A stretch of DNA of 64,000 nt from Mariprofundus aestuarium (GTDB taxonomy: Bacteria > Pseudomonadota > Zetaproteobacteria > Mariprofundales > Mariprofundaceae), in the NCBI RefSeq assembly GCF_002795805.1, contig NZ_CP018799.1, positions 365,001 through 429,000 of the forward strand. The letters run 5' to 3'. The first letter of the stretch is position 1; each line of letters begins with the position of its first letter. A model generated the notes under the pieces. The model did not search any database. It was not told where the DNA came from and saw only the letters and a list, made by a program, of their open reading frames with translations. Both the position numbers and the translations under genes were made by a program. This document shows, piece after piece, positions 46,995 through 51,258 of the stretch.

Positions 46995-48392
46995 ATGACA
47001 AGCAGACACATTCATATTCTAGGCGTATGCGGCACGGCAATGGCTGCGATTGCAGCGCTGGCCAAATCCGGTGGCTACCGGGTGACGGGCTCCGATGCCG
47101 GCGTCTATCCACCAATGTCCGATTATCTGGCCGAACTGGGGGTTGATATTGCGCCGTTTTCTGCGGCAAACCTGGACCCTGTTCCCGACCTCTGTGTGAT
47201 CGGCAATGCGATGGGGCGAGGTAATGTCGAGGTGGAGTTGATCCTGAATCGTGGACTGGCCTACTGTTCAGGGCCCGAGTTTGTCGGCAACCATATCCTG
47301 CCTGGTCGCCATGCTGTGGTCGTGGCAGGGACCCATGGTAAGACGACTACGGCATCTATTATGGCGCATGTGCTGGAAGTGGCGGGAAAACAGCCGGGGT
47401 TTCTCATTGGTGGCGTGCCGGAGAACTTTGGTGGTGGGGCAAGACGTGGAGAGGGTGAACCCTTTGTTCTGGAAGGGGATGAGTACGACACAGCCTTTTT
47501 CGATAAGCGCAGCAAGTTCCTGCATTACCATGCGCGTACGCTGATTCTGAATAATCTTGAATATGATCATGCTGATATCTTTCCGAACCTTGAGGCAATC
47601 AAAATACAGTTCCACCATCTGGTGCGCACAGTGCCTGCCTGTGGCACGATCATCGCTAACGCTGATGAGGAGCATGTCGCGGACGTGCTGGAGCGTGGTT
47701 GCTGGACGCCGGTGACTACCTTTGCTCGTTACCCGCACCCCTCAGCCCAGTGGCAGTGGGAGCCGTTAAGTGAGGATGGTGCACTGTTTCGCATCTACCG
47801 AAATGGCAAACTATGGCTCGAGTCCGAATGGGAGATGATTGGTGTGCACAATGCGGCCAATGCCTGTGCAGTGGCTGCCGCGGCATCTTCAATGGGTGTT
47901 GAGTGTGCCGATATCGCCAGGGCATTTGAGAGCTTTTCCGGAATTCGCCGCCGCATGACGCTGGTCGGTGAAGCAGGGGGGGTGAAGGTGTTCGATGATT
48001 TTGCCCATCACCCTACCGCAATTACCAATATGGTTACGGCAGCCAAGGCTGCGATGAGGCGTGGCGGCAGTGGGGGACGGCTATGGGTCATTGTAGAGCC
48101 GCGCTCCAACACCATGCGTACCAAGGTGCACCAGGATAGGTTGCCGCTCTGCTTTGATGCGGCTGATTTCGTGGTCTTTGCAGAGCCCTCCGAGCGCAAC
48201 CTGAAACAGGGAGAGGTGCTCGATGCCACGGCGATCTGCAGGGCGATCGGGAAGCACGCATCCATGATTGCTACTGTGGAGGCTATTGTTTCCCATGTTG
48301 GAAAAAAAGCTGAGTCCGGTGACCATCTTCTGGTTCTCTCTAATGGTGGTTTCGAGGGGATTCACGGAAAGCTGCTCAAGACGCTCGCCTGA
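46995..48392 (+). CDS. mpl: murein peptide ligase Mpl
   Basis: A 465-residue Mur ligase relative that attaches recycled L-Ala-D-Glu-meso-DAP tripeptide to UDP-MurNAc. The N-terminus HIHILGVCGTAMAAIAAL is characteristic of Mpl and distinguishes it from MurC. The ATP loop is VAGTHGKTTTASIM, then FLIGGVPENFGGGAR and EGDEYDTAFFDKRSKF, all Mpl hallmarks, and DDFAHHPTAI. It implies recycling of DAP-type peptidoglycan, in agreement with the MurE DNPR motif. It is separated from the dcw cluster by the SRP RNA region. Confidence 0.95.
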   Translation: MTSRHIHILGVCGTAMAAIAALAKSGGYRVTGSDAGVYPPMSDYLAELGVDIAPFSAANLDPVPDLCVIGNAMGRGNVEVELILNRGLAYCSGPEFVGNHILPGRHAVVVAGTHGKTTTASIMAHVLEVAGKQPGFLIGGVPENFGGGARRGEGEPFVLEGDEYDTAFFDKRSKFLHYHARTLILNNLEYDHADIFPNLEAIKIQFHHLVRTVPACGTIIANADEEHVADVLERGCWTPVTTFARYPHPSAQWQWEPLSEDGALFRIYRNGKLWLESEWEMIGVHNAANACAVAAAASSMGVECADIARAFESFSGIRRRMTLVGEAGGVKVFDDFAHHPTAITNMVTAAKAAMRRGGSGGRLWVIVEPRSNTMRTKVHQDRLPLCFDAADFVVFAEPSERNLKQGEVLDATAICRAIGKHASMIATVEAIVSHVGKKAESGDHLLVLSNGGFEGIHGKLLKTLA

Positions 48393-49476: not shown

Positions 49477-50235
49477 TTGCCTGAAAACGAGAAGTTTCTA
49501 ACAACGTATTTGAGGGAAATCGGTGTGCAGACACCGGTTTCCCTTTTTGCATCCGGGCCGGCGATTTCGGCACCGGAGGTGGCTGTTGAAGAAAAGACGG
49601 CTCTACCAGCGACTGAGGTTCACGCGCCTGCTGTAGATTCTTCAGTTATAGAAATATCTTCGGTTGAGGTTTCTACATCCGGAGGCTTATCTTCTTTGGA
49701 GGCAAAGGCGGCTACGTGTCGTCTTTGTTCGCTGGCTGAAACGCGTACGCAGGTGGTGTTTGGGACAGGCAATCCGAGTGCTGATATTGTCTTTATTGGT
49801 GAGGCGCCAGGGCGTGATGAGGATCTGAAGGGCGAGCCATTTGTCGGTCGTGCGGGTCAGTTGCTTGATCGCATGCTCTCGGCAATCGGGATGGACCGGA
49901 ATCAGGTCTATATTATGAATACAATCAAATGCAGGCCGCCGAACAATCGCGATCCAAAGATTGATGAGGTGCAGGCCTGTAATCTCTGGTTTGAACAGCA
50001 GCTTGCGTTGCTGCAGCCAAAGGTGATTTGCCTGCTGGGGCGTGTGGCTGCGCAGACCGTGCTGGAAACCGATGCGCCTCTGGGTTCATTGCGCGGGCAC
50101 TGGCACAACTATCAGGGGATGCCGGTCTGGGTGACCTATCATCCTGCTTACCTGTTGCGTTCGCCGACGCAGAAACAGAAGAGCTGGCAGGACCTGCAGC
50201 AGCTTGTTTCGCGCTATCGGGAAATAAAAGGCTGA
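49477..50235 (+). CDS. uracil-DNA glycosylase, family 4 (Fe-S)
   Basis: A 252-residue DNA repair enzyme removing uracil. The catalytic core starts near residue 68: cluster cysteines in ATCRLCSLAETRTQVV and CNLWFEQQ, the active-site loop GEAPGRDEDLKGEPFVGRAG (motif GEAPG), and YIMNTIKCRPPNNRDP. The histidine motif is VWVTYHPAYLLR. The first 67 residues are a low-complexity Ala/Val/Glu region as in many proteobacterial members. The start is TTG at 49477, 20 bases after fbp with AAGGGG upstream; it could begin later. Confidence 0.9.
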   Translation: MPENEKFLTTYLREIGVQTPVSLFASGPAISAPEVAVEEKTALPATEVHAPAVDSSVIEISSVEVSTSGGLSSLEAKAATCRLCSLAETRTQVVFGTGNPSADIVFIGEAPGRDEDLKGEPFVGRAGQLLDRMLSAIGMDRNQVYIMNTIKCRPPNNRDPKIDEVQACNLWFEQQLALLQPKVICLLGRVAAQTVLETDAPLGSLRGHWHNYQGMPVWVTYHPAYLLRSPTQKQKSWQDLQQLVSRYREIKG

Positions 50236-50258
50236 AGCAGCCTTAAAGGTTTGCGGCT

Positions 50259-50330
50259 CTATATCAGGATGCTGCCAATATAAAAGCCAGTCAGCGTAAT
50301 CAGTGAAATGGTAATATCGAACTCTAACAT
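50259..50330 (-). CDS. tiny single-span membrane peptide, 23 residues (downstream of pair)
   Basis: Minus-strand ORF: MLEFDIT..., a 23-residue peptide with an acidic start and one hydrophobic span (ISLITLTGFYIGSILI). GGGAGGGG five bases before the ATG is one of the strongest ribosome binding sites in the window, which argues for real translation. It shares its plan and the M-x-(E/K)-x-D-I start with the peptide encoded just upstream (50421-50489). No family is recognised. Peptides of this size often sit beside large membrane complexes such as oxidases or transporters, which is only an analogy. Confidence 0.5.
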   Translation of the reverse strand: MLEFDITISLITLTGFYIGSILI

Positions 50331-50381
50331 GGTAACCCCTCCCAGAGTATTGATGCGGAGAAGTATCTGTCGAATCGAGGA

Positions 50382-50403
50382 TGTGACAGTGTTATGTGTC
50401 ACA
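50382..50403. promoter_or_regulatory. inverted repeat between the two tiny genes
   Basis: TGTGACA (50382-50388) and TGTCACA (50397-50403), a perfect 7-bp inverted repeat with an eight-base spacer. Its TGTGA arms equal those of the CRP-type site at 50546, but the spacing is wrong for CRP. It may be a hairpin in the mRNA or another operator. Confidence 0.4.
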
Positions 50404-50420
50404 CAAGTTGCCGAACCTCT

Positions 50421-50489
50421 TTAGATGGAAGCGGCAACGAAAAAGCAGGCCAGTGTCAGCGCAGTGTATGCGATGTCGATCTTGATCAT
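50421..50489 (-). CDS. tiny single-span membrane peptide, 22 residues (upstream of pair)
   Basis: Minus-strand ORF of 22 residues: MIKIDIA..., one hydrophobic span rich in Ala, Leu and Phe (YTALTLACFFVAASI). AGGAG six bases before the ATG supports translation. It resembles the second peptide at 50259-50330 in size, in the MxxxDI start and in having a single span, so the two are probably paralogues. Upstream on its strand lie a -10-like TATAAA (50500-50505) and a perfect CRP-type palindrome centred at 50553.5. Function unknown. Confidence 0.5.
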   Translation of the reverse strand: MIKIDIAYTALTLACFFVAASI

Positions 50490-50545
50490 TTTCTACTCCT
50501 TTATACAGTGGGGCGCGGCACCCTCTGCGGAAAAAGCAGTGTGGA

Positions 50546-50561
50546 TGTGACCTGGATCACA
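50546..50561. promoter_or_regulatory. CRP/FNR-family palindrome
   Basis: TGTGACCTGGATCACA is an exact match to the CRP core TGTGA-N6-TCACA. Relative to the -10-like TATAAA at 50500-50505 on the minus strand (expected +1 near 50493), the centre falls at about -60.5, the position of a class I activator site. It could instead serve the cyclophilin gene on the plus strand. Confidence 0.55.
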
Positions 50562-50682: not shown

Positions 50683-51258
50683 ATGAAGCTATTTATAAAG
50701 AGCCTTATGGTTGCGGCCCTGCTTGCATTTTCAGCAGGCCTTGCAAGTGCCGAGGATATCAAGCGCCATGTCGAAATTCAGACTACAAAGGGCAACATTG
50801 AAATCGAGCTATATGCGGACAGAGCACCTGAAACCGTGAAAAACTTTATCAGGTATGTGCTGGCATCTGCATATGACGGCACCATTTTTCACAGGGTGAT
50901 TCCCGGTTTTATGATTCAGGGTGGAGGCTTCGAAGCCAGCTTCAGGGAGAGGCCTACTGCCGCTCCCATCAGGAACGAAGCTGAGAATAGCCTGAAAAAC
51001 CTTCGCGGCACCCTGGCCATGGCGCGCACTGGCGACCCACATTCGGCCACTTCGCAGTTTTTTATCAACCTGAAAGATAACGGTTTTCTTGATTTTCGTT
51101 CCCGCAACTCTGGTGGTTGGGGGTATGCCGTGTTCGGCAAGGTGACTGCAGGTATGGATGTGGTTGATGCGATTGCTATGGTGCAGACCACTTCAGTTAG
51201 GCAATACGATAATGTTCCTGTCGTGCCTGTGATCATTAAAAGCGTTATCGTTCGATAG
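50683..51258 (+). CDS. ppiA: periplasmic peptidyl-prolyl isomerase (cyclophilin type)
   Basis: A 191-residue cyclophilin. A Sec signal peptide is clear (MKLFIKSLMVAALLAFSAGLASA, given here only by its ends KLF and ASA, cleavage after about residue 23). The catalytic core has GTIFHRVIPGFMIQGG, GTLAMARTGDPHSATSQFFI and YAVFGKVTAGMDVVD. It should assist proline isomerisation during outer-membrane protein folding. GAGGAG ten bases before the ATG supports the start at 50683, and the frame open back to 50644 has no signal peptide logic. Confidence 0.92.
   Translation: MKLFIKSLMVAALLAFSAGLASAEDIKRHVEIQTTKGNIEIELYADRAPETVKNFIRYVLASAYDGTIFHRVIPGFMIQGGGFEASFRERPTAAPIRNEAENSLKNLRGTLAMARTGDPHSATSQFFINLKDNGFLDFRSRNSGGWGYAVFGKVTAGMDVVDAIAMVQTTSVRQYDNVPVVPVIIKSVIVR

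Follow-up and report, generated by a model that had tools for sequence, protein, structure and literature searches.

Two minus-strand open reading frames (ORFs) of only 22 and 23 residues lie between a uracil-DNA glycosylase (UDG) gene and a cyclophilin gene in the genome of Mariprofundus aestuarium, and they raise the question of whether such short sequences are genes and, if so, what kind of peptide they encode and under which control. The DNA analyzed, referred to here as the window, was a 64-kb stretch (G000:C1:365001-429000) of this 2.54-Mb genome (G000). The two peptides are designated K-type and E-type according to the residue at position 3. The following features, given in window coordinates, were identified at the locus.

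49477-50235, plus strand: UDG gene, named from a reading of its translation.
50228-50244, minus strand: terminator-like intrinsic hairpin, downstream of the E gene and overlapping the end of the UDG gene.
50259-50330, minus strand: E-type peptide gene, 23 aa, MLEFDITISLITLTGFYIGSILI, read from an internal ATG at 50330 and supported by homologues and pN/pS.
50336-50343, minus strand: E-gene ribosome binding site (RBS) GGGAGGGG, read from the sequence, with a purine-rich GGAGG/GGGAG-type site retained in homologues.
50362-50367, minus strand: -10-like hexamer GATACT, 28 nt from the centre of the E-gene site (class II geometry), assigned from the consensus only.
50388-50403, minus strand: E-gene CRP-type site TGTGACACATAACACT, 8/10 match, with orthologues at 9/10 and at 59-67 nt.
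50421-50489, minus strand: K-type peptide gene, 22 aa, MIKIDIAYTALTLACFFVAASI, supported by the ORF, homologues and pN/pS.
50496-50502, minus strand: K-gene RBS AAAGGAG, read from the sequence, with GGAG/AGGAG retained before homologues.
50546-50561, no strand assigned: K-gene CRP-type site TGTGACCTGGATCACA (TGTGATCCAGGTCACA on the minus strand), 10/10 match, retained in homologues.
About 50684-51258, plus strand: cyclophilin gene, named from a reading of its translation.

A preliminary description of the locus had reported two minus-strand ORFs of 22-23 residues, each with a strong RBS and an M-x-(E/K)-x-D-I start, in a stretch that otherwise looked empty. The coordinates were confirmed on the sequence, as were both RBSs (which are also present before homologues) and the start motif in both ORFs, and no genes other than those for the peptides were found between the end of the UDG gene (50235) and the start of the cyclophilin gene (about 50684); tRNA-Thr and rsmE lie further out, past the cyclophilin gene. 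The same description had the pair led by a perfect CRP-type site. The site at 50546-50561, centred 64 nt upstream of the K ATG, is indeed the sole perfect (10/10) CRP-type site in the 64-kb window, but the E gene has a weaker site of its own, centred 65 nt upstream of its ATG within a 22-bp palindrome (50382-50403). Because the downstream gene carries this site, K and E are probably two separately controlled genes rather than a single operon under one site. The hairpin at 50228-50244 may terminate transcription of the UDG gene as well as of the peptide genes. Elsewhere in the window, a 27-aa hydrophobic ORF (about 48008-48091, minus strand) was rejected as the shadow of an mpl-like gene on the opposite strand.

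The UDG locus was then fetched from relatives independently of the peptide sequences. In the same interval, G008, G001, G015, G016, G017, G019, and G020 have short ORFs of the same kind, in the same orientation and each with an RBS. A profile search over the class (78 genomes) further identified G003 and G010 (MEFDIAIAVTSLAGFFIAHALI) and gave nothing convincing outside Mariprofundus. No K/E peptide was found outside the genus among 399 genomes of the phylum, where the same 10 carriers were recovered, and a search of a collection of genome contigs yielded no match beyond Mariprofundus; the scan returned the close relatives Mariprofundus sp. KV, M. micogutta, and a Mariprofundus MAG. The homologue search proposed in the preliminary description thus resulted in 18 K/E genes without internal stops from 10 of 23 Mariprofundus genomes, with RBSs retained. 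E-type peptides occur in all 10 genomes and further K-type peptides in G008, G001 (two copies), G015 (two copies), G019, and G020, giving the arrangements K+E (G000, G008, G019, and G020), K+K+E (G001 and G015), and E only (G016, G017, G003, and G010). The peptide gene of G003 is within the UDG-to-tRNA-Thr/rsmE interval, beside a nuclease-like gene, and that of G010 is beside the same nuclease-like gene and tRNA-Thr. Since no K/E peptide was detected in 13 of the 23 genus genomes (some of them incomplete, but including the well-assembled G002, G011, and G012), the K/E function is dispensable or replaceable. In G017, the UDG/tRNA-Thr interval (L012/L036; L012 2535-3129) encodes three other tiny membrane ORFs in addition to the E-type peptide, two of which have CRP-type sites on the opposite strand, making this interval a hot spot for tiny membrane genes.

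Stop codons or frameshifts in close relatives had been named as the observation that would speak against coding, and none was present in the 18 genes from 10 genomes. Summed over disjoint species pairs, pN/pS was 0.02/0.30 for K-type genes (19 differences in 63.5 synonymous sites vs 4 in 203.5 nonsynonymous sites; Fisher p=5e-10) and 0.06/0.35 for E-type genes (23.5 in 67.4 vs 12.5 in 205.6; Fisher p=1e-8). The K and E genes are under strong purifying selection. That the conserved element is instead a regulatory RNA, with the ORF incidental or serving as a leader peptide, is highly improbable: short transcripts ending at the terminator-like hairpin could be small RNAs, but the concentration of interspecies substitutions at synonymous sites largely refutes this explanation, the sequence between the ORFs looks by eye to be poorly kept beyond the site and RBS, and no Rfam family matches the locus.

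Residues D5 and I6 are invariant across all 18 genes, the K vs E charge difference at residue 3 is retained in every carrier genome, and 17 of the 18 peptides have small residues at both position 15 (G/C) and position 19 (G/A). The proposed paralogy of the two peptides held when sequences were shuffled in fixed register (p <= 2e-5), with p <= 3.4e-4 when the polar N-terminus and the hydrophobic part were shuffled separately. Independent genomes also bore out their description as short single-span membrane peptides; the predicted products, at 22-23 aa with hydrophobic residues 6-23, fall within the small membrane proteins (<=50 aa, mostly one hydrophobic span). Searches of Pfam, NCBIfam, and PHROGs assigned them to no family.

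The CRP-type site noted at the pair is likewise retained upstream of homologues in independent genomes. Each of the 18 K/E genes has its own TGTGA-N6-TCACA-like site, with a match of at least 9/10 in 16 cases and of 8/10 in the other two, and only 0.25% of shuffled upstream regions scored >=9/10. The centre of the site is 59-67 nt before the ATG in most of the genes and at 78 nt in two K genes (G015_1 and, for its CRP-like 8/10 site, G001_1). A class II CRP promoter requires a -10 element at a set offset from the site centre, and a -10-like GATACT/CATACT is found 28 nt from the centre before the E genes of four genomes (including G008, G001, and G015); the K genes have only weak hexamers at this position. 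Leaders of approximately 22 nt with a strong RBS are predicted. As read from the DNA of relatives, K and E were thereby shown to combine conservation of the coding sequence with a strong RBS and with a CRP-type site whose spacing is fixed. In the mechanism that we propose, an activator would bind approximately 41.5 bp before the transcription starts (class II), and each peptide would be translated from a short-leader mRNA.

Other genes behind the same arrangement were sought with the pattern GTGATN5TCACA-N40-66-GGAG, which places the site and then a Shine-Dalgarno sequence at the K/E distance. This search resulted in matches in 19 of the 23 genus genomes, and the reversed control pattern had no match in the 23; as the regulon was sampled through pattern searches, the counts are a lower bound. 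The 49 distinct matches with site and RBS were sorted into 19 tiny membrane ORFs, 4 other tiny ORFs, 18 larger proteins, and 8 cases with no clear start. Tiny membrane ORFs therefore follow the module in 19/49 cases, compared with 5/117 for the same RBS-to-ATG rule in the 64-kb window with the two peptides left out (Fisher p=6e-8, a value to be read as indicative because this one window serves as the background and some matches are orthologous). Decoding of the matches gave further tiny single-span ORFs (31-52 aa), found in carriers and non-carriers of K/E alike, such as the following.

G000 C1, about 588065-588163, minus strand: MIKQQAADKHEQLLTIAMVTALIGALGFITAYL, 33 aa, perfect CRP-type site (L080, L183).
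G000 C1, about 1349564-1349668, plus strand: MPITHDHSPRTEDRAILIAIVALITIFGVVSSFI, 34 aa, perfect CRP-type site (L082), with a relative in G008.
G017, UDG/tRNA interval: MRTGDVAMERRGMDKKSIAAIIILIGVALIATAYL, module match.
G018 and G020: MSAIF...IALIALAALFFFR, module match.
G007 and G022: MAVPYHIRDTKDHLHIIPEAYRNEIKIALLVPAGLACLTLFIMLALHN, module match.
G006, G009, G011, G012, and G014: family ...NLEIVAMVTVLVGFIGITNAIF, module match.

In the tiny families other than K/E, every pair tested had a lower pN than pS (ratio 0.13-0.61). Both of the further G000 genes (33 and 34 aa) were unrecognized until now. Many of the larger targets look exported by their N-terminus, including a PD40 beta-propeller protein in several genomes, lipoproteins, and a protein labelled OmpW-like from a reading of its N-terminus only. 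The exported PD40 protein (L083 780-1901, minus strand; L133, L137, L172, L173, L223, L241) has a CRP-type site genus-wide, and its gene adjoins that for glucose-6-phosphate isomerase in G000 and G008. A cysteine-containing, non-membrane protein of 53-58 aa (MNFLNNMMNELMHEKELAAMSATCHVSNGECSGAY...; L150, L151, L156, L116) follows the same module in several genomes. Outside the genus, 2 of 22 module matches lead to tiny hydrophobic ORFs, one of them lipoprotein-like, so the expansion of tiny membrane targets seems specific to Mariprofundus; an exported PD40-like protein with a CRP-type site recurs in another genus too. Taken with the conserved sites, there is strong support for placing K and E in a Mariprofundus regulon whose activator, of the CRP family and probably carrying cAMP, induces many tiny membrane proteins and exported envelope proteins.

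A second tiny family served as an independent test of the module. A search of 78 genomes with a profile of the protein only gave 18 matches, all in Mariprofundus, and a CRP-type site precedes 18/18 copies. Six of these copies (G012, G020 twice, G008, and G019 twice) were reached by the protein profile alone, and a 9/10 site precedes each of them, at 63-67 nt in five cases. In the sixth (G020 C16, about 15.76 kb, L190), the site is intact and the reading frame is disrupted near its start, suggesting that copies arise and are lost. A further, divergent, tiny membrane gene lies approximately 200 bp away from the L190 copy. A comparison by hhalign did not support homology of K/E with the second family, and the link between them is thus a shared promoter module and protein type rather than demonstrated descent.

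This turnover in the wider tiny set would also suit type I toxins such as Ibs, Ldr, and TisB, which resemble K and E in being very short hydrophobic peptides with tandem copies. K and E would then be membrane-depolarizing peptides checked by antisense RNA and arranged in tandem as ibs/sib or ldr, and their length of 22-23 aa, hydrophobicity, tandem copies, and restriction to one genus agree with this. We nevertheless consider it improbable, as no promoter-like site was detected on the opposite strand of the locus, which also, as noted, has no Rfam match, the predicted leaders of approximately 22 nt with strong RBSs are unlike long structured toxin mRNAs, and each gene has a dedicated CRP-type activator site. 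Positive residues beside the hydrophobic part are common in membrane-acting small proteins and toxins (PMC12719787), whereas the N-termini of E-type peptides are net negative.

A candidate regulator was sought in G000, which encodes two CRP/FNR-family proteins (C1:250915-251577 and C1:2322227-2322928) with cNMP_binding and HTH_Crp_2 domains as well as about ten class III cyclase domains. The recognition helix of both proteins contains R-E-x-x-S-R, similar to the R-E-x-x-G-R of CRP, and the 233-aa regulator retains FFGELSLLDAEPRSATV, which we take to resemble the CRP cAMP-pocket motif. Two marks of a CRP-type regulon were thus found: a palindrome at activating distance and, in the genome, a CRP-family regulator together with cyclic nucleotide synthesis. 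Because these regulators, their motifs, and the cyclases are present, control of the module by cAMP-CRP, through one or other of the two proteins, is plausible. The Mariprofundus system shares with known cAMP-CRP regulons its TGTGA-N6-TCACA sites, CRP-family regulators, and class III cyclases, and differs from them in that the most frequent single target class found, within this one genus, is tiny single-span membrane ORFs.

Regarding function, the earlier suggestion of accessory peptides of a membrane complex, or of signalling or stress peptides, remains the right class for K and E as judged from their sequences, and the analysis pointed to no partner protein. Most likely, they are small membrane proteins induced through CRP that have a modulating effect on inner-membrane or respiratory function and are YohP- or CydX-like in action. 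We give roughly an even chance to the fuller reading that they are CRP-activated paralogous single-span peptides that tune membrane energetics or a membrane complex within a tiny-protein regulon of Mariprofundus. The inner membrane would be crossed by the whole helix of 22-23 residues, the charged residues 3 and 5 lying at one interface and the C-terminus remaining inside the bilayer. The helix would pack through the small residues G/C15 and G/A19, either with its like in homo- or hetero-oligomers or with a larger protein of respiration or transport; this contact would tune membrane energetics or complex activity under energy or carbon limitation. The helical volume moment at 100 degrees was not significant (p=0.61) and did not support a packing face, so the proposed face is drawn only from conserved residues 15 and 19.

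The closest worked example for such action, as a functional analogy, is YohP of E. coli, a 27-aa protein that is induced by starvation, dimerizes through a glycine motif, and lowers the membrane potential without killing (PMC12719787). K and E are similarly monocistronic-looking and single-span, glycine-type packing is proposed for them, and induction by energy or nutrient limitation would be expected. The likeness is functional only; the E-type span lacks flanking positive residues, and for K and E the induction is deduced from the CRP-type site.

The main rival to CRP-induced tuning peptides is a CydX-like subunit role, in which K and E would be constitutive, structural accessory subunits of one respiratory or transport complex and needed for its assembly. 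CydX is a tiny single-span bacterial membrane protein, found in Mariprofundus as well, and a member of the cytochrome bd complex (PMC4325964). The size, single span, and strong conservation of K and E fit such a role, the invariant D5-I6 could be a docking surface, and paralogues that differ by K or E at position 3 might be partners inside a complex. We regard this as unlikely, if less so than the toxin explanation. CydX is a recognizable family encoded with cydAB, whereas K and E match neither CydX nor any other Pfam or NCBIfam family and lie away from oxidase genes; no oxidase or transporter gene adjoins them at the loci inspected, where the neighbours are UDG, cyclophilin or others, tRNA-Thr, and rsmE. 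Fewer than half of the genus genomes have them, with a copy number of 1 to 3. PetG (cytochrome b6f subunit 5) was rejected as a relative, the PDB match being a 12-residue local similarity (TLAGFYIG/TLAGLFVA) at chance level (E=1.4), and K and E have no b6f context.

A small membrane protein under CRP-type control is a known kind of gene. As far as our searches of open papers show, the K/E families and a regulon that favours tiny membrane proteins are undescribed, and no paper joining Mariprofundus with CRP was found in the open literature. It is possible, if somewhat short of an even chance, that in Mariprofundus a CRP-family regulon has become a programme dedicated to filling the inner membrane with tiny single-span peptides that vary between lineages, in six or more groups that are distinct in sequence and arise and disappear behind a single standard promoter module; this would be an undescribed architecture for retuning the membrane. 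Gene finders miss such genes, so a numerous output of a global regulator in microaerophilic iron oxidizers has apparently been overlooked. From the regulon, tiny membrane proteins can already be listed together with the conditions predicted to induce them, and the fixed spacing from site to start is a route to further such genes that needs nothing but sequence. Should the peptides tune membrane potential or respiratory complexes, they would bear on how these low-energy iron oxidizers meet energy limitation.
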